Assembly (NCBI GenBank): GCA_024275575.1
Contig: JAJRYV010000023.1
Span: forward strand, 1-49,260
Reading direction: 5' to 3'
Origin: a bacterium
Lineage (GTDB): Bacteria > Zhuqueibacterota > Zhuqueibacteria > Zhuqueibacterales > Geothermadaptataceae
Length of the DNA: 49,260 nucleotides
The number at the start of each line of letters is the position of its first letter. Within the stretch, counting starts at the first letter, position 1. Made by a program: the position numbers and the translations under genes. Under the pieces are notes generated by a model. The model had not been told where the DNA came from and searched no databases. It was given only the letters and a program-made list of their open reading frames with translations. Below, in pieces: positions 1 through 15,140 of the stretch.

Positions 1-681
1 GTTTTCGCCTTGATTATGTGCTTTGGTGTATCGACTGATACTTATGCCCAGTTCGGCAATAAGGTCGAGGACACCCCACATAACTTGCGCCATGCGACAG
101 ACAATGGCATGCCTGTTGAAGACCTCGGAGAGATCTGTGTTTATTGCCATACGCCTCACAACAACAATACCAGTATCGATGCGCCCCTGTGGAATCGCAG
201 CACCCCCGCAGGTCCGTACTCTATGTACAGCAGCGCGACCCTCGATATGACCATTGCTGGTACTGCCCAGGGCGTATCTCTTGCATGTCTTTCCTGTCAT
301 GATAACACCATCGGTCTCGATAATGTTATCAATATTCCGACTTCCCAGTTCGGTAATGTCAGTCCGGCAGGTGCAACGATTTCCAGTTGTGCAACCGGTT
401 GTCACACCGGCACGGGCGCCGGCGGCCTGAACTTTGAAGGCACGGTTATCGGAACCGATCTGACCAACGATCACCCGATTTCCCTGACTTATGATGCCGC
501 CCAGGATCCAAATTTCCATCCGGCAACAAATGGCAAAGTTGGCGTATTGCCGCTTTATGGTGCGAACAAAGATCAGGTGGAATGTGCTTCTTGCCACAAC
601 CCGCATGATAACTCAAACCGCCCATTCTTGCGCATGTCCAACGCCAATAGCGCCATGTGTATGACTTGTCACGATATTTAA
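1..681 (+). CDS. Secreted multihaem c-type cytochrome, 5' end outside the window
   Basis: The frame is open from base 1, and the first residues (VFALIMCFGVS...YAQ) look like the end of a signal peptide, so the true start lies upstream of the window. Four canonical haem-binding motifs are visible (CVYCH, CLSCH, CASCH, CMTCH). A fifth candidate, CATGCH, is a CX3CH spacing. The layout, with motifs followed by stretches such as HTPHNN and NPHDN, is that of periplasmic or exported cytochromes using the 'doubled CXXCH' style. It is the first gene of a + strand cytochrome island, followed by a prolyl isomerase, an outer-membrane barrel candidate and two lipoprotein cytochromes. Its likely role is electron transfer in the periplasm or at the surface. 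The redox partner cannot be read from sequence. Confidence 0.85.
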   Translation, partial: VFALIMCFGVSTDTYAQFGNKVEDTPHNLRHATDNGMPVEDLGEICVYCHTPHNNNTSIDAPLWNRSTPAGPYSMYSSATLDMTIAGTAQGVSLACLSCHDNTIGLDNVINIPTSQFGNVSPAGATISSCATGCHTGTGAGGLNFEGTVIGTDLTNDHPISLTYDAAQDPNFHPATNGKVGVLPLYGANKDQVECASCHNPHDNSNRPFLRMSNANSAMCMTCHDI

Positions 682-751
682 TTGGTACTCAATTCAATAT
701 CAATGCACGAATCGTGATTGTAAAATAACTGCCGGAACTTAAAGTGCATGG

Positions 752-786
752 TGGGGTGAATTTGATTTCACCCCATCTATTTTTTT
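752..786 (+). terminator. Rho-independent terminator or attenuator
   Basis: TGGGGTGAA (752-760) pairs perfectly with TTCACCCCA (767-775) across a 6-base loop, followed by TCTATTTTTTT. It follows the cytochrome gene. It ends directly before the AGGA ribosome-binding site (788-791) of the prolyl isomerase, so downstream transcription must read through it or start very close by. Confidence 0.8.
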
Positions 787-798
787 CAGGATATGCCA

Positions 799-1794
799 AT
801 GTCAAAAAAGCCCCAACTCATTTGTGTTTTGTTATCCCTGGTAACCTCAGTCGTTGCCTTTGGCCGCCCCCCTGCTGTGACGCAGGAAAACAATACGGTC
901 GTTTATGTAAACCGGGCAGAAATCAAAGCTGCACGGGTGGCTGCAGAAATCAATAAACAATTGCCTTTGCAATCATACCACTCGCGGGTTTCTCCTGAAA
1001 AAATTGAAAAAATTCGCAGCGAAGTCATTCAAAAACTCATCGAAGAAGAACTGCTCTTCCAGTATGCTAAAAAACTGAGAATAAAAGTTTCGAAAAAGGA
1101 AATCGATAACAGTCTGCGGGAAATGCAGAAAGAATATCCATCGGAAAAAGCGTTTTGGCAAAGGATTAAAAGAGCGGGTTCGGACAAGAAAAAATTACGC
1201 CAGGAAATTAAGCGCGTTTTGGCCATCAATAAGGTCAAAAAACAGGAAATCACCGACATGATTTCCATCAGTTCCAACGAAGTTGAAAACTATTATAAAA
1301 ACAATAAAGAAAAATTCATCAAACCGGCGCAATTCCATGTGCTGCATCTGTTGATTTCAGTCAATCCTGGCGCCATGAAAGAATGATGGCTTGAAGGCAG
1401 AGACAAAGCATTGAATGTGCGTGCGGCCATCGAAAACGGACTTGAATTTGCACAGGCGGCAGAGCAGTTTTCCGCTGATTCTTCGAGTTTTAACAAGGGT
1501 GGCGATATCGGCTGGTTTCACCAAGGCCAGCTCTTGCCTGAGCTGGAAAAACGTATGCAGGAAATGGCGATCGGTGAATTGAGTCAGCCCATCCAGACGA
1601 TCTATGGTTATCATCTGATCAAACTGCTCGGAAAAAGACCTTCACACCAGGTGCCGTTTATTGAAATAAACAAGGAAAAATTAAAGAATAAGCTCATTAA
1701 AAAACAAAGCGATACCAGGACTGAAAAACTACTGGCAAATCTGCGTCAGGCTGCTAACATCCGGATTATTCCATATAAGACAAATGAAGAATAA
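799..1794 (+). pseudogene. SurA/PrsA-type parvulin prolyl isomerase with an in-frame TGA
   Basis: ATG 799 is chosen because AGGA lies 7 bases upstream and a signal peptide (MSKKPQLICVLLSLVTSVVA) follows. A SurA-like N-terminal helical region occupies about residues 25-175. The parvulin domain follows, with FSADSSSFNKGGDIGWF and QTIYGYHLIKLLG typical of the fold. Codon 196 (1384-1386) is TGA, but the same frame continues as conserved parvulin sequence (WLEGRDKAL...) to TAA at 1792. The family assists folding of periplasmic and outer-membrane proteins, and the barrel gene next door is a natural client. As read, the gene yields a product lacking the catalytic domain. The break may be a nonsense mutation, a sequence error (GGA to TGA would restore Gly) or, less likely, selenocysteine recoding. 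The family call is firm; the functional status is not. Confidence 0.85.
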
Positions 1795-1947
1795 ATCGAT
1801 TTGCTTTGATATCATTATTTTGCAAATTCAACATTTTACTCATAATTCTTCGTTTCAGCCGGTAATAATGAAAGAAAACAGAGCCGATGCTTGCTTTTTT
1901 TGATTATTCCGGGTTGTATTTAACTTATGATGAGTTATCTCTAAAAA

Positions 1948-3912
1948 ATGGAATTTTTTAACGATAAATCGAGAAAGCTGGGTTTGATTGCTCTCGCTTT
2001 CCTTTTCGGGTCATCACTGGCTGCCCAGGGCGTTGCTCCATTCCGTATTTTCGACTGGCATGGTTCATTGTTGCTGCATTCACTGCATGAAAAACGTTCT
2101 GCTAAGAATGATGTTAAAGAAGAAAACTACCGGGAATCGTTGAACTTAAGCAATCATGGATTTATCATCAATCCCAAACTCTGGTCTTTTGAATGGGATG
2201 GTAAACTTGCTTTCTCGCAGGAAAGTTATATCAGCAGCAATGCCACGGAAGTTATCCGCGGCCGTTTGACGAATCAATCATTGAGCAATTCTTTTCTGCG
2301 TGATTCATCCCATCCGTTTCGCCTGGGTTATAGTCATAATTCGAATATCATCAATTTATCCTATAACGGACGCAACGAATTTGATATCAATACCTATCAT
2401 GCAACCTTTGACCTGCTCAATATCCCGCTGGTTTCGCGTTTCTCCGCAGAATGGCGTGATATCAAAGATAAATGGCAGCGTGGTGATTACAGTAATATTC
2501 GCGATCAGGTGCGCAGGAATTTTACTTACAGCGGCACTCACGAAGGGGCAAAATACAAAACCAGTGTGCGCGCCCATGTATTCGGCAGCGATGACCGGCT
2601 GAGTGATGATCGCACCTATTCAACCTATTCTTTGAATTATAAAACGATACGTCTGTTCGGTGATAGCCTGAAAAATTCATGGATCAGCGACGTCGATGCC
2701 CTGCACCGTGACGGACGAAAGACTTACAGCAGCATGCGGCTTTCACAATATATGGAAGCCTTGTTTTTTCGCAAACTCGACTCTTCCATGCGTTACGCCT
2801 TCAAGACGTATAATTCGCTTGGCATTACTTCTCTGGAAAATTCGGCCTCAGGAAATTTTGACTATCCGGTTACGGAAGATATCCATGTCGGCGGCGGTTT
2901 GGGCGCTGCGATTGGCACCTCGAGTTCGGGACAGTTCAATGCCGGAAATTTGAGTGGCAATATTTCTTATAGCAAAAAAATACCGCTCGGCGGTATGTTT
3001 CAGGCGTCGTTTTTTCGGACGCTGGCTCGCACTTCGCGTGATGTTGAAGTGACCGAACGCGTTATTGTTTACGAAGAGCACTTTTTTCTTGGAAATGCAC
3101 CTATCGTTCTCAACGAACGCCATGTCAATCTTTCGAGTATCGTAGTCATCGATAAAGACACGAAGATGATCTTTGAAGAGGGTGAAAATAAAGATTATTA
3201 TATTCGCGACTTTGGCGACCGGGTAGAGATTCATCGTAATTTGCTCGGACGTATTGAAGAAAGTTCAGGGGTTTTGGTGGATTATCGTTATGAAACTCTG
3301 CCGAGCCTGAAATATAATACCGGAACGCAATTGGTTAGCGGCACACTTTCGTTCAATAAACTAAACTTGTATTTCCGGCAATCGCGGCATCAAGTAGATA
3401 TTCTGGCCGGTGAACTTGAAGCGCGCGGTGCGACGCTGGGTGATATCGATGTGCTGGTAACCGGCATGCAAGTCGGCACACGAGGAAAACAGGCGGGTGT
3501 TTCTCTGACCAGTGAGTTTAAAAGCCAGGATGCCACTGATTATGCTTATGACTCAATCACATTTCGTAATACTTTGTTTATTATTCCTGTAGAAGCAATT
3601 ACACTGACGGCTTCGGTTTCTTATCTGAATATGGTGCATAAACTGAAAGACTACGAATTATCGGATTTTTCCGTCTCTACTGAACTGAAATGGCGACCAA
3701 CACTGGATTTGTTCATCGCCAGCTATCTTAAATTACGAAACAGGGATGAATCGCAACGGAGCAAGGAGCTCAATTATGAATATGGCGTTGCAATTCAACG
3801 ATCATGGCGAATTATTCGTTTGAAACTGAAATTCGATAAAAGAGAATGGGAACTTTATCCGCAACAAATTGAGGAAAAACGGACAACCATTGAACTCGAA
3901 CGAATTTTTTAG
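1948..3912 (+). CDS. Outer-membrane beta-barrel candidate of a porin-cytochrome cluster
   Basis: This 654-residue protein has an N-terminal signal peptide (LIALAFLFGSSLAAQG). It then shows long alternation of polar and aromatic residues typical of transmembrane beta strands (for example WSFEWDGKLAF, FNKLNLYFRQSR). It ends in LERIF; a terminal Phe is the usual signal for BAM-dependent outer-membrane insertion. There are no CXXCH motifs. The size and position between a periplasmic cytochrome and two lipoprotein cytochromes match the role of MtrB/PioB- or OmbB-like porins that sheath haem chains across the outer membrane. Sequence similarity to those families is not evident by eye, so function rests on context and architecture. 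No clear Shine-Dalgarno precedes ATG 1948. Confidence 0.7.
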   Translation: MEFFNDKSRKLGLIALAFLFGSSLAAQGVAPFRIFDWHGSLLLHSLHEKRSAKNDVKEENYRESLNLSNHGFIINPKLWSFEWDGKLAFSQESYISSNATEVIRGRLTNQSLSNSFLRDSSHPFRLGYSHNSNIINLSYNGRNEFDINTYHATFDLLNIPLVSRFSAEWRDIKDKWQRGDYSNIRDQVRRNFTYSGTHEGAKYKTSVRAHVFGSDDRLSDDRTYSTYSLNYKTIRLFGDSLKNSWISDVDALHRDGRKTYSSMRLSQYMEALFFRKLDSSMRYAFKTYNSLGITSLENSASGNFDYPVTEDIHVGGGLGAAIGTSSSGQFNAGNLSGNISYSKKIPLGGMFQASFFRTLARTSRDVEVTERVIVYEEHFFLGNAPIVLNERHVNLSSIVVIDKDTKMIFEEGENKDYYIRDFGDRVEIHRNLLGRIEESSGVLVDYRYETLPSLKYNTGTQLVSGTLSFNKLNLYFRQSRHQVDILAGELEARGATLGDIDVLVTGMQVGTRGKQAGVSLTSEFKSQDATDYAYDSITFRNTLFIIPVEAITLTASVSYLNMVHKLKDYELSDFSVSTELKWRPTLDLFIASYLKLRNRDESQRSKELNYEYGVAIQRSWRIIRLKLKFDKREWELYPQQIEEKRTTIELERIF

Positions 3913-4036
3913 TACAGTTTGACAATCCGGGGTTGGCTGGGGAGTTCTCTGACCTGGGAGAATCAAAATTGAATTGCCACAAAAACCTACAACATGCCGG
4001 CATTCTTTTGGCCGTACAGAGGACGGAGAAATGAAA

Positions 4037-4336
4037 ATGCCCTGGATACGCTCAAGCATTTTATTGGTAATCTCAATTTTTCTTATTATTTTTGCGACAT
4101 GCACGGAAGCACCTGTTACTCCTGAAGAGGAGGAATGGCGTGATCCGGCTTGCATCTCATGCCACCCTGAGGGGATCGAGGGGTTCAATGAAGAGATGAC
4201 GATGCATACGACTCGGTTCGTAAAAACGGATAATGGGCCATGGCATGCGAACCGACAATCGCACTGTTATTATTGCCATGCCTATAACGAAGATATGAAC
4301 ACTGGGTTCTGTATTTATTGTCATGGAGCAAAATGA
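4037..4336 (+). CDS. Small three-haem lipoprotein cytochrome c
   Basis: ATG 4037 lies 8 bases after GGAG (4025-4028); ATG 4031 is an alternative. The 99-residue product starts with MPWIRSSILLVISIFLIIFATC, a lipoprotein signal with the lipobox Cys in FATC. Three haem motifs follow: CISCH, CYYCH and CIYCH. The mature part is short and His-rich. The gene ends (TGA 4334-4336) one base before the start of the large cytochrome, so the two are translationally linked. It plausibly acts as a small electron relay at the outer membrane beside the barrel and the 28-haem lipoprotein. No named family is recognised beyond multihaem cytochrome c. Confidence 0.8.
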   Translation: MPWIRSSILLVISIFLIIFATCTEAPVTPEEEEWRDPACISCHPEGIEGFNEEMTMHTTRFVKTDNGPWHANRQSHCYYCHAYNEDMNTGFCIYCHGAK

Positions 4337-4337
4337 A

Positions 4338-6953
4338 ATGAGATTTGGTTTTACCTGTTTGATCACTGTTCTTTTCACAACAGTTTTCGTGTTTTCCTGC
4401 AGCGACCCACGCGTGGCACCGACGCAGGTTGATGGTGATGTTGCCGTGCACCCGGAGGGCTGGATATCCTCCAGCTCAAGTGAATTTCATGGAACCAGGC
4501 TGGCGAGCGAGAATTATGACTTGACACAATGTCGTCAGTGCCACGGTAATCAGTTCGGCGGTGGCCTTGTTGAAGTCTCCTGTTATAAATGTCATACTTA
4601 TTTCCCGCATAATGACAAATGGGTCGGAAATGAGGAGGGCTCGCATGGTTTCCTGTTGCGCGGCCTTGAATACGATTATACCGTTTGTCGCTCATGTCAC
4701 GGTGAAGACCTGCAGGGTGGCAAAGTCGAAGTTTCCTGCAACAAATGCCACAAAGAATTCCCCCATGCACCAAACTGGATTTTCCCCGGCGATAATTTTC
4801 ACGGCGACTATGTCAAAAATAACGATCCCGAAAAAACATCATGCAAAACCTGTCACGGTGAAAATCTCGATGGTGGCACTTCCAAAATTTCCTGTAATAA
4901 ATGCCATGAAAACTACCCTCACCCGGAACAATGGACCGTTAGCAGCAGTGAAGATTTCCACGGGAAATTTTTGCGCAGCAAAGAATTCGATTTGAGCATA
5001 TGCCAGCTTTGCCACGGCGATAATTTTTCCGGCGGTTCATCGAATGTTTCCTGTTATAAATGCCATACACAATACCCACACGTGCCGACATGGCTCGGCG
5101 GAACGCCCGAATCACACGGTGCCGTGCTCAAAGCAGCGGAATATGATTTCAGCACTTGTGAAAGCTGCCACGGAAGTGACCTGCTGGGCGGTTCTTCCGG
5201 GGTGTCCTGCAAAAAATGCCACACCACTTTCCCACATGAAACCGGGTGGGTGAGCGATTCGCCACAATCTCATGCGGCAATACTCAAGTCCATGGATTAC
5301 AACCTGGAATCGTGCACTCTCTGCCACGGGACAGATTATGCCGGTGGAAGCTCGGAGGTGTCTTGCTATAAATGCCATGCATCTTTCCCGCACAAAACCG
5401 GCTGGGTTGGCGAAGGCGAAGCCACGCATGGTCTGTTCCTCAACAATCTCGGCTATGATTTCACCTCCTGCCGCCCCTGCCACGGCGAAGATTTAAAAGG
5501 CGGCTCCACCGAAATTTCCTGCAGCAAATGCCACGCAGATTATCCACACGCTGAGGGATGGATTAACGGCGATAGTGGGCACGGCGCACAATTGCGCGAC
5601 AAGGGCTACGATATGTCGACCTGCAAAAATTGCCACGGTGATGACCTGCAGGGCGGCACCTCCGCTATTTCCTGCAATAAATGCCATGCTGATTTCCCCC
5701 ACAAACCCGGCTGGAAAGACGGCGCCGGCGACGAATCGCACACGACATTTTTACGGGCGAAAAACTATGATAACAGTTCGTGTAAAATCTGTCACGGCGA
5801 TGATCTGCAGGGCGGCACAACGGGTATTTCCTGCAACAAATGCCACGCCGATTATCCCCACGAGCCGGATTGGATCGGCGGCGGCGCCAACGCCCACAGC
5901 ACGATTTTGCGCGATAAAGGTTACGATATGTCGACCTGTAAAAATTGCCACGGCGAAGATCTGCAGGGTGGTACCTCTGGCGTATCCTGTAATAAATGCC
6001 ATGCCGATTTCCCGCATGCACCGGGCTGGAAAGCGGGTAGCGGTGCTGAATCGCACACAACATTTTTAAGTGCGGCAAATTATGATTACACCTCATGCAA
6101 AGTCTGCCACGGTGAAGATTTAAAAGGCGGCACTACTGGTATTTCCTGCTACCAATGTCATACAAGTTTTCCCCATCCGCCGGAATGGATCGGCACCGGA
6201 GCAGGTTCGCACCGCGCCTTTATTCAGGATAATAATTATGAATTCAGCGGTTGTACCAACTGCCATGGTGAAAACTATGACCTGGTTAAAGGCGAATTGT
6301 CCTGTCGCTCGTGCCACACACAGCCTGATGGCCCGGAAGCCTGTACGACCTGCCACGGGGTATTCAATGCCGATCCGACGATTTTAACAAACGTCGCACC
6401 ACCGCGCGGCCTCGATGGCGAAGAATTAAATACCGATGTTGCAGTCGGCGCTCATCAGATTCACCTGACACGAAGCGGGGCGGTTGAGGCCGCCTGCCAG
6501 GGTTGTCACAATGTTCCAGAAATCATGGCCAGCCCGGGGCACATCGATGCCGATGCTCTGGCTGAAGTGTTCATTACCAACCCGGTAGCGCTAACACCGA
6601 GTTTTAACGGCACAGTAGTTCCGACACCGCTTTACGAGCCGGCGAGTTCTACCTGTCAAAATTCGTACTGCCACGGGAATTGGAAATTGTCGAAATCACA
6701 ATCGGAAAAAGCCTGGATTTACAGCGATAGCACGATGGAAGGCAGTAATGCGACACCTAACTGGAGCGATCCGCAAACTGCAGAATGCGGCAGTTGCCAC
6801 GGTTTGCCGCCGAAGGGACACAATCCCTACGAATTGGCGAATTGTGTCTGGTGCCACTATGAAGTCGTCGATGAAACGGGTACGATTATCGATTCGAGCA
6901 AACATATCAACGGCAAAATCAATTATACCGACTTCGAATACGATATGTACTGA
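4338..6953 (+). CDS. Giant multihaem lipoprotein cytochrome: 28 CXXCH plus one CX4CH
   Basis: ATG 4338 is preferred over 4323: GGAG lies 9 bases upstream and it gives a clean lipoprotein signal (MRFGFTCLITV...FVFSC). The 871-residue product has 12 tandem units (residues about 65-660), each with two CXXCH motifs in the pattern CxxCHGedLxGG...SCxKCHxxfPHxxxW. The C-terminal part adds CTTCH, CQGCH, a CX4CH (CQNSYCH), CGSCH followed by GLPP, and CVWCH. The CX4CH...CXXCHGLPP arrangement is the one described for Geobacter-type CxxxxCH/CXXCH domains. The protein could bind up to 29 haems. As an outer-membrane lipoprotein behind a barrel and a small lipoprotein cytochrome, it is a good candidate for the extracellular terminus of an electron conduit. 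It ends in tandem TGATGA. Confidence 0.92.
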   Translation: MRFGFTCLITVLFTTVFVFSCSDPRVAPTQVDGDVAVHPEGWISSSSSEFHGTRLASENYDLTQCRQCHGNQFGGGLVEVSCYKCHTYFPHNDKWVGNEEGSHGFLLRGLEYDYTVCRSCHGEDLQGGKVEVSCNKCHKEFPHAPNWIFPGDNFHGDYVKNNDPEKTSCKTCHGENLDGGTSKISCNKCHENYPHPEQWTVSSSEDFHGKFLRSKEFDLSICQLCHGDNFSGGSSNVSCYKCHTQYPHVPTWLGGTPESHGAVLKAAEYDFSTCESCHGSDLLGGSSGVSCKKCHTTFPHETGWVSDSPQSHAAILKSMDYNLESCTLCHGTDYAGGSSEVSCYKCHASFPHKTGWVGEGEATHGLFLNNLGYDFTSCRPCHGEDLKGGSTEISCSKCHADYPHAEGWINGDSGHGAQLRDKGYDMSTCKNCHGDDLQGGTSAISCNKCHADFPHKPGWKDGAGDESHTTFLRAKNYDNSSCKICHGDDLQGGTTGISCNKCHADYPHEPDWIGGGANAHSTILRDKGYDMSTCKNCHGEDLQGGTSGVSCNKCHADFPHAPGWKAGSGAESHTTFLSAANYDYTSCKVCHGEDLKGGTTGISCYQCHTSFPHPPEWIGTGAGSHRAFIQDNNYEFSGCTNCHGENYDLVKGELSCRSCHTQPDGPEACTTCHGVFNADPTILTNVAPPRGLDGEELNTDVAVGAHQIHLTRSGAVEAACQGCHNVPEIMASPGHIDADALAEVFITNPVALTPSFNGTVVPTPLYEPASSTCQNSYCHGNWKLSKSQSEKAWIYSDSTMEGSNATPNWSDPQTAECGSCHGLPPKGHNPYELANCVWCHYEVVDETGTIIDSSKHINGKINYTDFEYDMY
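4530..6317 (+). repeat. Twelve tandem two-haem repeats, about 52 residues each
   Basis: The first haem motifs of successive pairs recur at a mean spacing of about 52 codons (about 157 bases). Units 8 to 11 are closest to each other in protein and DNA (shared blocks such as GGTTACGATATGTCGACCTG and CTGCAGGGCGG), which points to recent internal duplication. Unit 12 is degenerate: the GG after CHG is replaced by DLVKGEL. Confidence 0.85.
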
Positions 6954-7089
6954 TGAAAATAAAATTCGATCCGGGTGTGAGCTTGAGTTCTCGCGCCCGG
7001 GCCGGATGATGATTGATAAATATAAACCGGTTTCGACTCTGTTTATATAGACAAACAACCTGTACACAAATAATACTGCAAAAGGAAAA

Positions 7090-7809
7090 ATGATGGCAAA
7101 CAGGATAAAATTCGCAACAATCATTTTGCTTTTTCTGATTTTCGCCTGTACAAAAAAAGATGATCAGACCGGGCAGCAAACGAAAAATGATACTGCCGGG
7201 AATAATATGCATCAAGTTGTTGCGGAAGAAGTATTGCACGCATCAAATTATACGTATATCAAGGTAAAAGAGGGAGCAAAAAGTTACTGGATTACCGTCA
7301 ATCACCGTGAAACTGAAATCGGCGAAAAACTCTATTTCACCGGTGGGCTGCTCATGAAGGATTTTAAAAGCAAACCCTTAAAGCGCACTTTCTCAGAAGT
7401 CTTGTTTTTGCAAAAAATCAGCAATGACCCGTTTGAACTGGCAGCGAAATCTCGCCCGGAACCGGTGGCGATAAAAGCGCCGGAGGTCTCGACGCCGGTC
7501 GAAACAATTGAGGGTGAAACTTCGCTCGCTTAATTGTTTGACAATATGAAGAAATATGAGCATAAACGTATCACAGTGCATGGTAAGGTCAGCAAATTGA
7601 TGAGCGGCGTCATGGGCCGGACTTTTTTACATCTAATCGATAATCAGGCCGGATCGACAAAGTATGATCTGACCGTGACCACCCGCGACCAGGTCGCAGT
7701 GAATGATTTTGTAACGGCGCAGGGCGTTATTACCCTGAATAAAAATTTCGGTTCCGGCTATTTTTATGAAATCATCATGGAAGACGCCCGCATTCAAAAG
7801 CGGAATTAA
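7090..7809 (+). pseudogene. NrfJ-like plus OB-fold lipoprotein interrupted by TAA
   Basis: AGGA precedes ATG 7090, and a lipoprotein signal follows with the lipobox Cys in LIFACTKK. The first half (VVAEEVLHASNYTYIKVKEG) is the small domain seen in NrfJ-like periplasmic proteins that accompany multihaem cytochromes. The second half resembles an OB-fold nucleic-acid-binding-like domain (HKRITVHGKVSKLM, KYDLTVTTRDQVAVNDFV). TAA at 7531-7533 splits the two, yet the same frame resumes at once. The intact paralogue at 14430-15140 reads LAELFGN where this one reads LA-stop-LFDN, so a GAA Glu codon has become TAA. It follows the cytochrome operon. It may be a decaying copy, a sequence error, or two separately translated halves. 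Confidence 0.75.
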
Positions 7810-8096: not shown

Positions 8097-9482
8097 GTGG
8101 ACACCCAATTTATACAATTCATTTTTTCAGCAGCTCTGATCATTTTTTCTTGTGTGCATGCACAAAAAACAGATGAACATGAGAAATTCATCGATGAGCT
8201 TTATCAAACGACATTAAAAAATGGTGCAACATACGATTTACTCGGGCAGCTTTGCCATAAATTCCCCAGCCGCCTCAGTGGTTCTCCGGGAGCTGCTGCG
8301 GCAATTGAATGGACAAAAACGGTGATGCAGCAATACGGCTTCGACCGTGTTTTTCTGCAGGACGTCATGGTTCCCCATTGGGTGCGTGGCGCCAGGGAAC
8401 AGGCGGCGATCATCAGTGGTAGGCAGCGTACAGAACTCAATGTGCTGGCGTTGGGGCGGTCTGTCGCCACCCCTGCCGGCGGCATCACTGCAGAGGTTGT
8501 TGCGGTAACCTCGCTGGCCGAAGTTGCCGAATTTGGTCGTGAGAAAATCGCCGGGAAAATCGTCTTTTACAACCGGCCGTTTGCGCAGGAATTTGTGAAC
8601 ACATTTCGTGGATATGTCGCCACTGTCGATCAGCGCTCGAAAGGCGCCTCGACAGCAGCAAAATTAGGCGCTGTAGCCGTGGTCATCCGTTCCGTCGGTA
8701 CCGGTGATGATGATTTTCCGCATACGGGATCGCTGCATTACGCAAAGGATTCAGCAAGAATTCCGGCGGCAGCTCTGAGCTCCCATGGCGCCGATCAACT
8801 TGCACGACGATTGCTCAAAACCCCAAATCTCAGGTTTTTCCTCAAGCTCCATTGTCAATATCTGCCTGATGTGAAATCACACAACGTTATCGGCGAGATT
8901 ACCGGCAGTGAAAATCCCGATCAATTTATCATGCTTGGCGGCCATATCGACGCCTGGGATACAGGACAGGGCGCCCACGACGACGGCGCCGGCACGATGC
9001 AGACGATTTCAGCCTTGCGAACCTTGCAGCAAATGGGATACAAACCTAAAAATACTTTGCGTGCGGTGATGTTTATCAATGAAGAAAACGGATTGCGCGG
9101 TGGCGGAAAATATGCTGAACTCGCGGTGCAAAACAAAGAAAAACACCTCGTCGCCATCGAGTCTGATGCCGGCGGATTTACACCACGAGCGTTCGGTATC
9201 AAAGGCGGGGATTCATCCCTTGCAAAAATCCGTACCTGGCTCGATTATTTCCCCGATAATACCATTACCGCTATCAAAGCGGGCCACGGCGGCGCCGATA
9301 TCAATCCGCTAAATCGTGCCGACGGCACACCTGTCGTCGGTTTCATCCCGGATTCGCAACGCTATTTTGATTATCATCATTCACCGGCAGATATTTTCAG
9401 TGCGATAAACCGCCGTGAACTGGAATTGGGTACGGCCTCGCTCGCTGCGCTCATTTATTTGGTGGATCAGTTTGGAATGTAA
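8097..9482 (+). CDS. Secreted M28-family zinc aminopeptidase with PA-type insert
   Basis: GTG 8097 has GGAG six bases upstream; TTG 8085 is the other choice. The N-terminus (IQFIFSAALIIFSCVHAQ) is a signal peptide. Residues about 120-250 form a protease-associated-type domain. The catalytic M28 domain follows: HIDAWDTGQGAHDDGAG near residue 283 supplies zinc ligands and the bridging Asp, and NEENG near residue 328 supplies the catalytic Glu and another ligand. The late HHSPADIF supplies the final His. The length is normal for a PA-containing glutamate carboxypeptidase- or plasma-carboxypeptidase-like enzyme. It probably cleaves N- or C-terminal residues from peptides outside the cytoplasm. 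It stands alone on + between the cytochrome island and the convergent tRNA-Sec. Confidence 0.88.
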   Translation: MDTQFIQFIFSAALIIFSCVHAQKTDEHEKFIDELYQTTLKNGATYDLLGQLCHKFPSRLSGSPGAAAAIEWTKTVMQQYGFDRVFLQDVMVPHWVRGAREQAAIISGRQRTELNVLALGRSVATPAGGITAEVVAVTSLAEVAEFGREKIAGKIVFYNRPFAQEFVNTFRGYVATVDQRSKGASTAAKLGAVAVVIRSVGTGDDDFPHTGSLHYAKDSARIPAAALSSHGADQLARRLLKTPNLRFFLKLHCQYLPDVKSHNVIGEITGSENPDQFIMLGGHIDAWDTGQGAHDDGAGTMQTISALRTLQQMGYKPKNTLRAVMFINEENGLRGGGKYAELAVQNKEKHLVAIESDAGGFTPRAFGIKGGDSSLAKIRTWLDYFPDNTITAIKAGHGGADINPLNRADGTPVVGFIPDSQRYFDYHHSPADIFSAINRRELELGTASLAALIYLVDQFGM

Positions 9483-9510
9483 TTCGCCCCTGCCGGCGGA
9501 AGGAAATTAG

Positions 9511-9605
9511 CGGGAACGTGTGGGAATCGAACCCACCTGCCCGGGCAGAACCCGGGCACAACGGTTTTGAAGACCGCGGCCACCACCAGATGTGCATGCG
9601 CTCCC
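9511..9605 (-). tRNA. selC: tRNA-Sec (anticodon TCA)
   Basis: On the minus strand the anticodon loop is CTTCAAA with anticodon TCA (9568-9570 on +), identical to the loop of bacterial selC. The variable arm is long: TGCCCGGG pairs with CCCGGGCA in 8 base pairs (9538-9558 on +). The T arm is GTGGG-TTCGATT-CCCAC. The acceptor begins GGGAGCGC and ends CGTTCCC plus discriminator G, giving an extended stem with one G-U and a mismatch at its base. The D arm pairs only with a bulge. No CCA is encoded. At 95 nt it has the usual length. selB lies 2 kb away on the same strand. Confidence 0.95.
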
Positions 9606-9684
9606 GAAAGAGTTGACAATAAACGAAAGTTTCGAAAAAGAGGCAAGGCCTAAAGTGAGCTGTTTTGAGGGGGAAAATCGATTT

Positions 9685-10827
9685 TCAATATGCAAGTTGA
9701 AAACGAAAAGTATTGAGCATGAGCGCAAGGTTGATGTTCATCGGTTCCAGGCGCAGTGTATAGTTGAAAAATTCCCGCCGCAGGGGATAACCTTTTCGCA
9801 TTTCGTTAAAAAGTTCCATCCGTTGCTCTGGGGTAAACTCATATAGTAGTCGCATCCGGGCGTCTGTCTTTTTTAGCCCGCTTATGGGTGTTAGCGCCTC
9901 ATAAAGCGCATTTTCGATCCCGGCGTCAGCGCGAATAGTCAAATTCGGCTGTTCCACTTCCGGCAAGCGTGGTACCCAATCCGGTGTGAAATCGAAATGG
10001 CGGCAAAAAATATCGTGGATAATTTTTGTCCCGTTGGCCTTGCCCTCCAAGGAATATCCGGCGATATGCGGTGTGGCAATATCCGTGTGCCGCAGCAAAT
10101 CCACATCGATATCCGGCTCGTTTTCCCAAACATCGAGTACAAGCGCGGCGCCGGCATGCTCCTTTTTCCAGCGCAAAAGGGCGGTATTATCGATCACTGC
10201 ACCACGACAGGTGTTGATGAGCAAGACATCTTCACGCAGTTTTGCTAACCGGCCGGCAGCAAATAAATGAAAGGTTTGATCTTGCCCCGACCGTATGAGT
10301 GGCACATGTAAAGTGATAATGTCGGCCTGCATGAGAGCGTCCAATTCGATAAAATTTTCGCCGGCCTGCCGGCGTTCGAGCGGCGGGTCGTTTTTTAAAA
10401 CCTGCAAACCGCAGGCTTGTGCCAGACGCACGACGCGGCTGCCCACATTGCCCACCCCGATGACCCCGATCGTCAATTCCCCAAGCTGCATGCCGCGTTC
10501 GATTGCAAGCTGCGCGATCGCTGCGAAAACGTGCTCGGCAACAGCGTCGGCGTTGCAGCCGGCAGCGTTGGCAAAGGTTATTCCCGCACTTTTGAGAAAT
10601 GACGTATCGATGTGGTCGGTGCCGATGGTTGCGGTGCCAACAAATTGGATGGTGCTGTTTTTCAAAAGGCGCTCATCAACACGCACAGTCGAGCGTACGA
10701 TGAGTGCATCGGCGTCACCGAGGATTGCCGCTGTGATTTTAGCTGCCGGCAGCAAATGGATTTCACCGAATTGCCCAAAGGCTACGTCGCCAAAAGCGAT
10801 GTGTTCATCGACGATGATTTTTAACAT
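9685..10827 (-). CDS. pdxB: Erythronate-4-phosphate dehydrogenase
   Basis: The 380-residue product is a D-2-hydroxyacid dehydrogenase of the PdxB type, which oxidises 4-phospho-erythronate in the DXP-dependent route to pyridoxal phosphate. Visible features are FVGTATIGTDHID near residue 80, NAAGCNADAVAEHV typical of PdxB, the NAD-binding GVIGVGNVGSRV, NTCRGAVID, and the catalytic His in TPHIAGYSLEGK. A C-terminal dimerisation-type extension (YEFTPEQRMELFNEMRKGYP) is present, as in PdxB and unlike short hydroxyacid dehydrogenases. ATG 10827 begins directly with MLKIIVDEHIAFG. It lies between tRNA-Sec and the selB operon on the same strand. PLP is the cofactor of SelA, a possible metabolic link, but co-regulation is not shown. 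Confidence 0.88.
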   Translation of the reverse strand: MLKIIVDEHIAFGDVAFGQFGEIHLLPAAKITAAILGDADALIVRSTVRVDERLLKNSTIQFVGTATIGTDHIDTSFLKSAGITFANAAGCNADAVAEHVFAAIAQLAIERGMQLGELTIGVIGVGNVGSRVVRLAQACGLQVLKNDPPLERRQAGENFIELDALMQADIITLHVPLIRSGQDQTFHLFAAGRLAKLREDVLLINTCRGAVIDNTALLRWKKEHAGAALVLDVWENEPDIDVDLLRHTDIATPHIAGYSLEGKANGTKIIHDIFCRHFDFTPDWVPRLPEVEQPNLTIRADAGIENALYEALTPISGLKKTDARMRLLYEFTPEQRMELFNEMRKGYPLRREFFNYTLRLEPMNINLALMLNTFRFQLAY

Positions 10828-10900: not shown

Positions 10901-11605
10901 TCAATTTTGTTTTTTATGCAATGATTTTTTGCTGTCACCGGTGATGATCCAGTAACCTGCCCAGATGCAAATCAGGCCGATAAATTCTGTGATATAAAGC
11001 ACTTCAACATGCCCTGCGCGTGCGGAGGCACCACCGATGCCGGGCAGTAACCCGCCGATAGCGATGAAAACATTGCCGCCAAAACGGTTTTTATATGCCG
11101 CGCCCAGTTGCCGGTATTTCCAAGCTGACCACACTGCACCGCCCACGAGGAAAACGAAAGCGAATGTATTGATAAACGGCGAAAAAAGACGCACCCACTG
11201 CCACTGCAAAACATTGCCCGAAAGCCGTGCACCATCAACCAATGCGGTATTTACCGGTGATACCAGCACACAGATCGATGCAGTAAAGATGAGCGCGACG
11301 ATCGCCATCATCCAGCGTTTTGCTGCGGTATCACGCATGAGCAGGTAAACTGTTCCGAGTGCCAGCGGCGCGCCGCCGAGCAAAGCACCGCTGATGTACC
11401 ACAATTTAAAAACGATGACATGCCAGCCCAAAAGCGTCGTCAGGCTTTCCAGCAAAGTGCCAAGCCCAAACGCAACCACTCAGGCAAACCACCAGAATAA
11501 ATAGAGCGCCGATGGTTTTTGCCGCCAGTGGCGCCACATTTTCAGGCTGAAAAAAAGAGCGATGCATGTCGTCAGCAACGGGATGTAGTGAATCAGATTT
11601 TTCAT
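10901..11605 (-). pseudogene. Seven-helix membrane protein with in-frame TGA, overlapping selB
   Basis: ATG 11605 overlaps the shifted-frame stop of selB as ATGA. The 235-codon frame encodes roughly seven hydrophobic segments (for example IHYIPLLTTCIALFFSL, LWYISGALLGGAPLALGTVYLLM, VFIAIGGLLPGIGG) and a basic tail (KKSLHKKQN). Codon 42 (11480-11482) is TGA, but coding sequence is obvious on both sides: ALYLFWWFA before it and VVAFGLGTLLES after it. A start at GTG 11479 would remove the first helix. GGA to TGA would restore a Gly-rich helix. Because selB and selC are adjacent, selenocysteine insertion must be considered. A weak stem (GGCTT/AAGCC) begins 14 bases after the TGA, but no canonical SECIS loop is evident. 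The function is unknown. Confidence 0.7.
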
Positions 11606-13520
11606 TCTTCGGCTCCAATTCCCGGAAAACGCAGGTCACCTTCACGGGTGGTTATTTCAAGACTGTCAAAATAATTGAGCAGGGGCAGGGCATATTTGCG
11701 GCTGACGTCATCGATTATTTTTTAAATTCCGCCACGGTGATTTGGCCGTTTTTCTGTAAATAGTGGATCAGTCGTGCGCGCGCTGTCGCTACCGCCTGTT
11801 GGTGAAAATAGAGTTCGCCGCTGATGCGTATGGCATTACCCTCGACAGCGAGCAGGTTCAACAAACCGGCGACAGCGGTAACGTCGTGATTGAATTTCGC
11901 CGCAAACTCGGCGACAGACGGCGGCGCGAATGCACTTTGCTCCAGCATCCCGGCAATTTCTTCTTTCAATGTTTTTTGTTCGTTGCTTAACTGGACAGTA
12001 AAATTTTTCAGGCGCAAAAATCCACCGGATTCGGCCAGCCTGTTTTCTGCGATCATTTTATCGAAACAAAACTGTAAAAACGGGGCGGCATAGTGTTTAT
12101 CCAGTTTTTGCACCAGCTCTGCTTTGCTGATGCCGATCTGCACCGGATTCTGCTGATGGAAATCGGCCAAAAGCTGTTCGATTCGTTGCTGAAAGTGTTG
12201 ATAACGCAGGGCGTGTGTCAGGCTTTTTTTGCTGATTCTCCATAAAATATTTTGTTTTTCCAGTAATGTGATTTGGTCGCTGACGATTTTTCCCGCCAGC
12301 CCTGTTTTGGCGATGATTTCCTGGTGTGTCGCCAAACCTGCAGCACTACGTAGGAATTGTTCCTGAATCAGCTCGGCAGGGTCTTCTTTTTCCAGCGCAT
12401 GCAATCGTTGTAAAGTCTCATCGAGCGTTTTACGTTTCAATGGCGCTGGTTGCATATCGAGAATGACGCCGCCACCGAGGGTGAGCATCGGGGAATACTG
12501 GCGGATGACAAACAGATCGAGACGCCGCGCCGCGAGGCTTTTCTCCAGGGTGATCTGAACGAAGTCAGTGGTGCCGGCGCTGACTTTTTGTCCTTTTAAC
12601 GGCCGAATACGCCCCATGATTTCGGCAGTACCGCAGTGGATGCGCACGCGTGTATTGGATTTAAGATCAGGACTGCTTTTGAGCAGCGTCACTTTACCCT
12701 GGAATTTTTTCGAGGCTTTAAACAGACCCGGCGCTGCCAAAACATCACCGCGGGCGATTTTATCTCTCGCGATACCGTGCAGGTTTATCGCCGCTCGGTC
12801 GCCGCTGGTTACCTGTTGAGTTTCGCTGTTATGTTTTTGAATGCCGCGAATGCGGCTTTTTTTCCCGGCGGGCAGAATCTCGATTTCGTCACCGACGCTC
12901 AATTCTCCGGATAAAATCGATCCGGTTACGACGGTGCCGAATCCTTTCATGGAAAAGCTGCGATCGACGGGCAGCCAGAAAATGCCGCGATCATGCCGCG
13001 GCGGCAGTTCCTGCAGCAAGCGGGGCAAGGCATTTTTCAATTCAGCAATACCGGAACCGGTGGTTGCGGAAACAGGGAAAATCGGCGCTTTTTCGAGAAA
13101 GGTGCCCTGTCGCAAATTTTCGATATCCTCTTGCACCAGCGCCAGCCAGTCTGCCTCCACCAAATCGATTTTGTTGATGATGACAATGCCGCGGCGAATG
13201 TGCAAAATTTTCAGAATGTCGAGATGTTCCCGCGTTTGCGGCATGACACCGTCATCGGCGGCGATGACAAACAAAACCAGATCGATGGTTGAGACACCGG
13301 CCACCATGTTTTTAATGAATTTTTCATGCCCGGGCACATCGATAATCGTTGCGTTATCACTGAAATGGGCGAAACCGATGTCGATTGTCAGACCGCGTTT
13401 TTGCTCCTCTTTTAGCCGGTCCGTATTGATACCGGTAAGCGCTTTGACGAGTGCTGTTTTCCCGTGGTCGATGTGGCCGGCAGTGCCGATGATTAGATGC
13501 TGCGGCGTAGAGTTGGGCAA
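11602..13520 (-). CDS. selB: Selenocysteine-specific elongation factor SelB, frameshifted near its end
   Basis: SelB is the GTPase that brings Sec-tRNA to UGA codons marked by a SECIS hairpin. G-box motifs are [11 protein letters not shown] (G1, residues about 12-22), [12 protein letters not shown] (G3), NKID (G4) and SATTGSG (G5); winged-helix domains make up the C-terminal half. Start TTG 13520 is chosen because GGAG lies 8 bases upstream and the GTPase fold begins at once; an in-frame TTG at 13631 would add an unlikely leader. In frame, the protein stops at TAA 11715-11717 after 601 residues. In the -1 frame, 38 more residues ([19 protein letters not shown]...) match the normal SelB end, giving 639. 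The shift occurs at a run of six A (11718-11723). This may be a homopolymer error or real -1 slippage. Confidence 0.9.
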
Positions 13521-13648
13521 AAAGAAATCTCCGTTTGTTGAAAAATGAAAGGGAATATAAAACTTCCGGCGGGGCTTTTCAACGAATTGTTCGAGGGTGT
13601 CGCTTTGACTTGTTGCATCGCTCAGGAACAATGCCTAAGCAGGTTTGT

Positions 13649-14392
13649 TTATGACACAGCGCTGACTGAAATCAACGGCATGCTCTCCGCATGCCACGGT
13701 TCCCCGGAAAAAGCGCCGTAAAAACTGTTTTTCCTGAAACCGGCGCTTTGCAGCATTGCTTCCATTTCATTTTTTAGCAATGGGTACAGTTCGACTTCAT
13801 TTTCAATTTGCCGTGCTTCTTCTTTGAGGGTCAAAACCGTTTTAAAGGTGATTTTGTTGCGCTCAGCATTGTAGGAATAATAGCGTTCAAAGCGGATTTG
13901 CTCATTTTCGATCACCGGCAATTGCGGCAGTTTTTGCCGCAATGCACGATCATAATTGACAATTTGCACAAAGAGCCTGCCGCCGCTCTGCAAACGCTGC
14001 CGCGCCTGTTGAAAAAATATTTCAAACTGCCCGGGCGAATCCAGATGCACGAGCGTATTGCCAAAGCAGATGACGGCGTCGAACGTTTGCGTTACGAAAT
14101 GCTGCCCAAAATCGAGCATATCAACGCGGATAAAATCGATTTTGCGGTTGGACGAGGTCGCTTTTTGCCGGGCGATTTCCAGCATCTCCTCATCGAGATC
14201 GAGGGCTGCCACATGATCAAATTTTTGCGCCAGTTGCCGGCAGAGATTGCCGGTGCCGCAACCGATTTCCAACGCCGATTTCCCGGCACAACCGCCCAAA
14301 ATGTGTGCGTCGATAAATTCGGCCTGCACTGGAGCGGCTTTGAAAATTAAATCATAATAGCGTGCGATGCTGGTGTAAAATTTTTTAGACAT
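13649..14392 (-). CDS. Class I SAM-dependent methyltransferase
   Basis: ATG 14392 (MSKKFYTSIARYYDLIFK) is chosen because the family begins with this 'YDLIF' helix. The longer upstream frame runs into the neighbouring lipoprotein gene and lacks a ribosome-binding site. Motif I for S-adenosylmethionine is ALEIGCGTGNL near residue 40, with an acidic motif II (VAALDLDEEML) and DAVICFGNTLVHL as motif IV. At 247 residues it is a typical small-molecule methyltransferase of the Methyltransf_25/11 type. The substrate is unknown. It is co-directional with selB (128-base gap) and lies 37 bases after the NrfJ-like lipoprotein, suggesting a shared transcript. Confidence 0.8.
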   Translation of the reverse strand: MSKKFYTSIARYYDLIFKAAPVQAEFIDAHILGGCAGKSALEIGCGTGNLCRQLAQKFDHVAALDLDEEMLEIARQKATSSNRKIDFIRVDMLDFGQHFVTQTFDAVICFGNTLVHLDSPGQFEIFFQQARQRLQSGGRLFVQIVNYDRALRQKLPQLPVIENEQIRFERYYSYNAERNKITFKTVLTLKEEARQIENEVELYPLLKNEMEAMLQSAGFRKNSFYGAFSGEPWHAESMPLISVSAVS

Positions 14393-14429
14393 GTCAGTGA
14401 GAATTTTGTTTTGTGAAGAATTATTCAGG

Positions 14430-15140
14430 CTACATGCCTTTTTGCAGTTGTGCGTCTTCCATGATAACCTCGTAGAGATAGCCGGCGCCGAAATCTTTGT
14501 TGAGGGAAATCGTACCGGTAAATTTGACGATATCACCGACTTTCACCTTGTCCTGCGTCGTTATCGACAGATCGAGTTTTTCACTGCTGTCTTTGGGATT
14601 TTGAATATGCAGGAAGTTTTTATTCATGATTTCAGGCAGAAATTTGGTCACTTTCCCGGAAACCGTTACACGTTTGTTGGCATATTTTTCCTTGTTGCCG
14701 AAAAGTTCCGCCAGGGGGAGTTCGCCTGCAACCGTTTCGACCGGCCCTTTGGCCAGCATATCGGGCTGCATTTTTTTAAATGGTTTTATGGCCAGACCAC
14801 TACCCGGAGCCTGTGCCTGCCGCCTTACGCTTTGCACAAAATAAATTTTGTCGAATGTCCGGTTCAGTTCCTTGCTGTGGAAATCACGCATTTCCAGACC
14901 GTGATCATGATAGATCGCTTCGCCCTGGTTGACTGTCGTTTTGGTGCAGGCCAGCCAGTAGCTGGCGGAGGGGGATTTAACTTTTAAATAAGTGTAAGAA
15001 GTCGCTTGTATCACTTCATCGACAACGACTTGCTGAGCAGCGCCCGCTAAAGTATTTTGTTGCCGGGCCGGTTTTTTTTGCTCGCACGCGAGGGTTAATG
15101 CAAATGCCACAATAATTAAAAATGCGAATTTAACTTTCAT
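14430..15140 (-). CDS. NrfJ-like plus OB-fold lipoprotein, intact paralogue
   Basis: AGGA lies 7 bases before ATG 15140. The 236-residue protein has a lipoprotein signal with Cys in LTLACEQ. The NrfJ-like domain spans about residues 35-110 (VVVDEVIQATSYTYLKVKS; SKELNRTFDKIYFV). A linker is followed by an OB-fold-like domain at about 150-236 (KRVTVSGKVTKFL; KVKVGDIVKFTG; DFGAGYLYEVIMEDA). It matches the broken copy at 7090-7809 along its entire length, including the last 30 residues, and supplies the template showing that the other copy's TAA replaces a Glu codon. NrfJ-like proteins occur with periplasmic multihaem cytochromes. A periplasmic role in cytochrome function or maturation is inference. 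Confidence 0.75.
   Translation of the reverse strand: MKVKFAFLIIVAFALTLACEQKKPARQQNTLAGAAQQVVVDEVIQATSYTYLKVKSPSASYWLACTKTTVNQGEAIYHDHGLEMRDFHSKELNRTFDKIYFVQSVRRQAQAPGSGLAIKPFKKMQPDMLAKGPVETVAGELPLAELFGNKEKYANKRVTVSGKVTKFLPEIMNKNFLHIQNPKDSSEKLDLSITTQDKVKVGDIVKFTGTISLNKDFGAGYLYEVIMEDAQLQKGM

Follow-up and report, generated by a model that had tools for sequence, protein, structure and literature searches.

What kind of electron transfer apparatus is encoded by the cytochrome genes at the left end of a 49,260 base contig from an uncultured candidate division KSB1 bacterium? The contig, C138 of assembly GCA_024275575.1 (a 4.96-Mb genome, here called G000), is in its entirety referred to below as the window. 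Its first genes encode a tetrahaem cytochrome, a prolyl isomerase, a large barrel and two lipoprotein cytochromes, one with three haem-binding motifs and one with 29 (Table 1), and the positions of their open reading frames agree with an earlier note on this DNA that they lie closely spaced on one strand, here the plus strand. That note took them for an electron conduit of a different lineage ending in a 28-29-haem cytochrome; the predicted barrel, the linkage and the repeats of that proposal stand, while the OmcE-type nanowire part was missed, loci of this kind have already been described under the name Uet, and the 28-haem protein is not part of the core. The window most likely holds the downstream half of an operon for extracellular electron transfer that is under sigma-54 control and would move electrons between the cell and its surroundings. 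Because its first gene belongs to the OmcE family, the locus is, as read from its genes, a putative nanowire-plus-conduit operon, beyond an MtrCAB- or OmcB-like conduit alone, and we hold this explanation as a whole, a nanowire and conduit under sigma-54 control, to be likely.

Secreted cytochromes of the OmcE family

The profile built on the first gene product matches OmcE of Geobacter sulfurreducens (PDB 7TFS) over positions 14-234 of 235 (E=1.2e-38; E=1e-25 in a single-sequence search), and the only other PDB sequence it matches is 9YUQ, a "putative multiheme cytochrome c" (E=1.5e-35). All four CXXCH motifs are kept in an alignment of 79 sequences drawn from many phyla, and so are four further histidines, one of which has a single exception. 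By these alignments the window cytochrome is related over its whole length to the OmcE nanowire family, and like OmcE it is secreted; the KSB1 proteins differ from OmcE in having an insert with a CX3CH motif and three tandem copies, and are putative filament subunits. The earlier note had correctly seen a real gene for a secreted cytochrome, and had missed both this family identity and the start codons, which lie on another contig (below).

The account of the OmcE filament in PMC12954529 has one haem coordinated by a histidine of the neighbouring subunit. This bears on a simpler reading, a plain porin-cytochrome conduit in which the tetrahaem protein would be a non-polymerising shuttle in the periplasm or at the surface, the barrel would carry the electrons and the 29-haem lipoprotein would be the terminal reductase. 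Such a conduit would explain why the barrel and multihaem lipoproteins share one operon, and it fits the DmsE/MtrA-like cytochrome that adjoins the barrel in relatives and the occurrence of 29-haem protein homologues at another porin-cytochrome-like locus (both below). It accounts poorly for a cytochrome whose only PDB relatives are OmcE and 9YUQ and which keeps the four non-motif OmcE histidines, including those needed for the inter-subunit bond as that source gives it, and tandem cytochrome copies next to an isomerase better suit an abundant assembled product; we therefore consider a plain conduit quite unlikely.

The CX3CH motif lies in an insert common to the KSB1 OmcE-like cytochromes of families f1, f7 and f15 (those of the window, L004, L018, L020-L025, L076 and L077). 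In pentahaem relatives from Nitrospirota, Schekmanbacteria and others the same insert has a canonical CXXCH, often with a histidine shortly before it, and alignment with these relatives revealed no conserved extra distal histidine in the KSB1 CX3CH proteins. It is possible that the motif binds a fifth haem, and a disulfide is the alternative.

Extent and probable regulation of the operon

The window begins at a contig edge (C138:1), so that the 5' end of the cytochrome gene is cut off. A DNA search of the contigs of G000 found two further cytochrome paralogues at the end of contig C30, which, when reversed, carries in order genes for a kinase, an NtrC-type regulator, an NHL lipoprotein (PF01436, E=6e-33), two cytochromes and the start (26 bases) of a third cytochrome gene. 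Its terminal codons (MKKSFVVM..) are those missing from the first gene of the window, and a one-base gap restores both the frame and the length (235 amino acids). We infer that C30 and C138 abut in G000 and that the operon spans the contig break, and this is supported by the presence of the whole gene series on a single contig of G001, a genome of the same genus, where locus L018 contains kinase, regulator, NHL, two cytochrome, isomerase, barrel, 5-haem and 32-haem genes. The G001 orthologues keep the gene order of the window, and their clustering is far beyond chance. The start of the operon is not at position 1, since two cytochrome copies and the NHL, regulator and kinase genes lie upstream on C30.

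A -24/-12 element (TGGCATTACTGTTGCG and similar) is found 5' of the NHL gene in 8/8 genomes with upstream sequence, and shuffled sequences give it a chance rate of 0.3-2% per genome. The histidine kinase of the operon has one CXXCH in its N-terminal half in each of the nine copies checked; because the motif is kept in all nine, the kinase is probably a redox sensor that senses through a c-type haem and is paired with the NtrC-type regulator. The conserved site is an observation on the DNA, and from it the haem-containing kinase and the regulator would control the operon.

A predicted outer membrane barrel

Structure prediction bears out the suggestion that the 654-residue protein ending in Phe is a barrel: the AlphaFold2 model, made with 26 homologues, has a mean predicted local distance difference test score (pLDDT) of 88.4 and a predicted template modelling score of 0.70, with about 27-28 long strands and the Phe at its end. 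Foldseek searches with this model return large outer membrane barrels (TonB-dependent receptors, Cir, LptD and MtrB among them) at template modelling scores of 0.2-0.4, and sequence searches found no Pfam, NCBIfam or PDB relative at useful E-values. PF11854, the MtrB/PioB family, has no match to the barrel protein or anywhere in G000, so a relationship to MtrB or PioB is undetectable by hidden Markov model comparison, as the idea of a different lineage had led one to expect. A large barrel is well supported by the model; its identity as MtrB is not supported, and membership in that family was rejected because there is no profile match and the likeness in fold is shared by several large barrels.

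The barrel might serve for export and not for conduction. Here the isomerase, the NHL protein and the barrel would be a secretion machine for the nanowire cytochrome, comparable to that proposed for OscE-H, and electrons would leave through another conduit, for example the one on contig C111. According to PMC13194489 and PMC12977616, OscH is proposed to fold, and OscE-G to secrete, OmcS in the osc cluster of G. sulfurreducens; G000 has a second porin-cytochrome-like locus (L196), and no MtrA-like partner for the barrel was found in that genome. In relatives, however, the barrel is without exception accompanied by a neighbouring multihaem lipoprotein, and the genus of the window has two of them encoded immediately after it, as would suit electrons passing through the barrel or at it. 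We regard an export channel as possible though doubtful; it can hold alongside the nanowire part of the explanation that we favour, so that the likelihoods given here do not sum to one.

Linkage and distribution

Scattering of these genes in relatives would have spoken against a common system, and the linkage is in fact kept in related genomes. The barrel family is present in 18 of 82 genomes of the phylum, and wherever the surrounding DNA was examined in these genomes an OmcE-like gene and an NHL lipoprotein gene adjoin it; G003, of the same family as G000, also has the cluster. The isomerase is also found beside the barrel in families f1, f7 (two members) and f15. The barrel is also encoded at 30 of 80 OmcE-like loci from named genomes that belong to many phyla. 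Both genes were called at 24 loci of such genomes, from other phyla, and at every one of these the two share a strand and are within 3.7 kb of each other.

In the relatives so examined a "FFFDGV" lipoprotein with paired CXXCH motifs (5-21 haems) is encoded directly before the barrel, in all but the genus of the window. It matches DmsE-type cytochromes (TIGR03508, E=2e-30, which is under the family cut-off). A genome search found no such DmsE/MtrA-like lipoprotein in G000, and G001 has a weaker match elsewhere only. By these comparisons the genus is unusual in that it has no DmsE/MtrA-like lipoprotein before the barrel and has 3-haem and 28+1-haem lipoproteins in its stead.

The 3-haem and 29-haem lipoproteins

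Both lipoproteins are much as the earlier note described them. Three CXXCH motifs were counted in the smaller one, which is 45% identical by BLASTP (E=2e-19) to the last 65 residues of a 14-haem cytochrome from a second KSB1 locus. For the larger, 871-residue one, motif counts, the DNA repeat period (156/159 nt) and the family alignment all agree with 28 CXXCH plus a CX4CH in tandem two-haem units; it contains 60 cysteines and 58 histidines, the latter exactly 2 x 29. In its family the N-terminal piece and the C-terminal CX4CH domain are constant and the number of two-haem units between them varies, with CXXCH counts of 6, 8, 12, 16, 22, 28 and 32. The counterparts downstream of the barrel in G001 have 5 haems (vs 3) and 32 (vs 28).

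The second locus, present on contig C111 of G000 (L196) and in several KSB1 genomes, has relatives of both the 3-haem and the 29-haem lipoproteins. It encodes a 9-haem protein whose tail is of the type IX secretion kind, a barrel candidate of 430 residues that has no Pfam or NCBIfam match, a 12-14-haem cytochrome and a lipoprotein cytochrome (6 to 22 CXXCH). A tree built on the constant domain joins the copy of the window with that of G001 (99/99), apart from the C111-type copies and the 22-haem G003 copy, the deeper forks being weak. An origin of the 29-haem gene by recent duplication of the C111 paralogue is unsupported, as the window copy groups only with that of G001, and long two-haem arrays may have more than one origin. 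Rather than the core of the system, the 29-haem lipoprotein is an addition specific to the lineage. A PDB sequence search with its family gave nothing useful.

The prolyl isomerase and the broken genes

The family match supports the chaperone-type prolyl isomerase of the earlier note, and its reading frame is not intact: it is split by an in-frame TGA. Read through this codon, the protein matches PF13616 (E=8e-22) and SurA_N_3 (E=1e-16), and it aligns with the isomerases of Uet-type loci over 290 columns (hhalign E=1.2e-41). A second broken gene directly follows the operon, with an in-frame TAA at a residue that is Glu in the paralogue within G000 itself and in G002. Each stop is a single G-to-T change from the expected codon (GGA and GAA, respectively), which fits a sequencing or assembly error or very recent decay.

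If the nonsense codon in the isomerase gene is real, the system could be in the process of being lost in this strain, and the TGA at 1384 together with a second broken gene so close by (TAA at 7531) is what such decay would look like. Against this, the remaining genes of the operon are open in G000 and 57-63% identical to those of G001, and single G-to-T changes are compatible with errors of sequencing or assembly; we think a decaying locus very unlikely. Recoding as selenocysteine is also unlikely and was rejected for the TGA, where aligned relatives have Gly, not Cys, and the Uet-type isomerase consensus has Ala. The hairpin 3' of the TGA is moderately stable only (z -2.4). The window does carry selenocysteine machinery, a tRNA-Sec gene at 9510-9605 (-) and a SelB-like elongation factor gene at 11715-13631 (-). 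The gene at 7090-7809 is intact (241-281 amino acids) in G001, G002 and G019 and in the window paralogue at 14430-15140 (-).

Relationship to known systems

Uet clusters (uetABCDEFGHIJ) have been described from Ca. Tenderia electrophaga (Tenderiales) and Gallionella (PMC10734462, PMC12575090), and the KSB1 operon is like them in combining a tetrahaem cytochrome (UetA), an isomerase (UetB) and an NHL protein, with a barrel that may be a remote relative of UetC. The window cytochrome is of the same family as the first gene product of loci in uet order, e.g. L157 and L133. The window barrel family aligns with the Uet-type barrel at hhalign probability 97 (E=2e-10) over the N-terminal half only, and barrels are generically alike. 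Uet has an NHL pair, UetH/I, whereas the KSB1 operon has one NHL gene. Homologues of the trihaem UetD/E/G were not recognised in the KSB1 operon, whose one 3-haem protein resembles the 14-haem cytochrome (no direct comparison with UetDEG was made). The profile of the undecahaem cytochrome UetJ (A7) gave no full-length match in G000, G001, G003, G004, G019 or G028, and because UetJ is missing we rejected filing the operon as Uet. Uet is described for electron uptake and OmcE for electron export. In the UetJ-type alignment A7 itself (L028, L075, L161, L117, L138, L104, L108, L092 and L142) the first ~215 positions match the OmcE-like family (A2), which suggests that UetJ contains an OmcE-like module.

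The osc cluster resembles the KSB1 operon in combining a nanowire cytochrome, a folding factor (OscH) and proposed secretion proteins, a likeness taken from published descriptions; its OmcS is a hexahaem protein without sequence similarity to OmcE. A folding factor beside such cytochromes has precedents in UetB (PMC10734462, PMC12575090) and OscH (PMC13194489), as these are presented there. MtrCAB, MtoAB and PioAB share with the operon a large barrel and multihaem cytochromes, and KSB1 relatives even have the DmsE/MtrA-like cytochrome by the barrel; they differ in that the KSB1 barrel lacks a PF11854 match and in that no MtrA-like gene was found in G000. PCC3 of iron oxidisers, compared by description, also joins a barrel to a haem-rich, repeat-built extracellular cytochrome (median 34 haems, PMC5566968), but has in addition a ~21-haem periplasmic cytochrome and an inner membrane protein, and no OmcE-like gene is described for it (PMC5566968).

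Proposed mechanism

In the nanowire-plus-conduit explanation the OmcE/UetA-type cytochromes, recognised by homology and encoded in three tandem copies, would be secreted and polymerise outside the cell as a nanowire. The isomerase, to judge from its linkage and from UetB and OscH, would fold the cytochromes or the barrel in the periplasm. The barrel, which is predicted to span the outer membrane, would either hold a haem wire or be the base or exit of the nanowire that joins it to the periplasm. In most relatives that haem wire would be the DmsE/MtrA-like lipoprotein encoded directly before the barrel, and in the genus of the window its place may be taken by the 3-5-haem and 28-32-haem lipoproteins whose genes lie downstream of the barrel. 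As a long rod at the outer membrane, the 29-haem lipoprotein would connect the cell to the nanowire, to a mineral or to a partner, and the NHL propeller would be an assembly or surface partner. The OmcE rise is given in PMC12954529 as 34 angstroms per four-haem subunit; at this spacing 29 haems in line would extend ~250 angstroms, enough to span the periplasm or to project far from the surface, a figure that is arithmetic and not a model.

Several points weigh against this explanation. No filament has been observed, and a sequence does not show whether its product polymerises; what cytochrome filaments do in physiology is itself a matter of dispute (PMC11077965, PMC13194489). Nothing in its sequence connects the barrel to a proven conduit, and its similarity to the Uet-type barrel is weak (probability 97, 276 columns). 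The surface placement of the 29-haem protein is inferred solely from its lipobox and its relatives, and its AlphaFold2 model, made without haems, is uninformative (pLDDT 48). The product of an unlinked gene may have replaced the DmsE/MtrA-like protein, and the isomerase gene is broken in the present assembly.

A bolder version would make the OmcE-type cytochrome, isomerase, NHL protein and barrel one machine across phyla, in which the barrel is both conduit and nanowire base, with the haem wire replaced in the KSB1 genus by a modular 29-haem rod whose length evolves through gain and loss of two-haem units; we offer it as a conjecture that is rather unlikely. For the still open question of how nanowires leave the cell and make electrical contact with the outer membrane, the compact operon offers a candidate for the contact that can be tested: it couples an OmcE-type cytochrome to one barrel family and occurs from KSB1 to Bacteroidota, Planctomycetota and Proteobacteria. 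With 6 to 32 CXXCH, the 29-haem lipoprotein and its relatives provide a natural series of lengths of one modular haem chain, useful for the study of electron transfer against length.

Features and neighbouring genes

Table 1. Features of the operon and of related loci in G000 (window positions unless a locus is named)
Feature	Position	Strand	Basis or remarks
OmcE/UetA-type secreted tetrahaem cytochrome, third tandem copy	1..681	+	OmcE profile match; 5' end on C30
CX3CH motif (CATGCH), possible fifth haem site or disulfide	388..405	+	kept in KSB1 relatives, families f1, f7, f15
SurA/parvulin-type peptidyl-prolyl isomerase (UetB-like), broken in assembly	793..1794	+	PF13616, SurA_N_3
In-frame TGA splitting isomerase	1384..1386	+	Gly in aligned relatives
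Large outer membrane beta-barrel (predicted), 654 residues, C-terminal Phe	1948..3912	+	AlphaFold2, Foldseek
Soluble insert of barrel (~residues 380-450), several invariant residues	3085..3297	+	AlphaFold2 model, alignment
3-haem lipoprotein (3 CXXCH)	4031..4336	+	related to C-terminal 65 residues of 14-haem cytochrome
28 CXXCH + 1 CX4CH lipoprotein, 871 residues, two-haem units of ~52 residues	4338..6953	+	motif counts, repeats
Constant C-terminal domain (GSu CX4CH...CXXCH motif)	6300..6950	+	PF09698 / TIGR01904; kept in 16 family members
Second broken gene, directly after operon	7090-7809	+	in-frame TAA at 7531-7533
Histidine kinase with sensor CXXCH	L004 5205-6677	-	orthologues in L018, L020-L023, L027, L081, L161
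Second porin-cytochrome-like locus	L196 (G000:C111) 3862-7419	-	also L185-L195, L199

Beside the operon on C30 (L004), and in the opposite direction to it, lie two genes for large cytochromes, at 8599-10734 (711 amino acids, 15 CXXCH) and 11007-14864 (1285 amino acids, 17 CXXCH), both on the plus strand of that locus.

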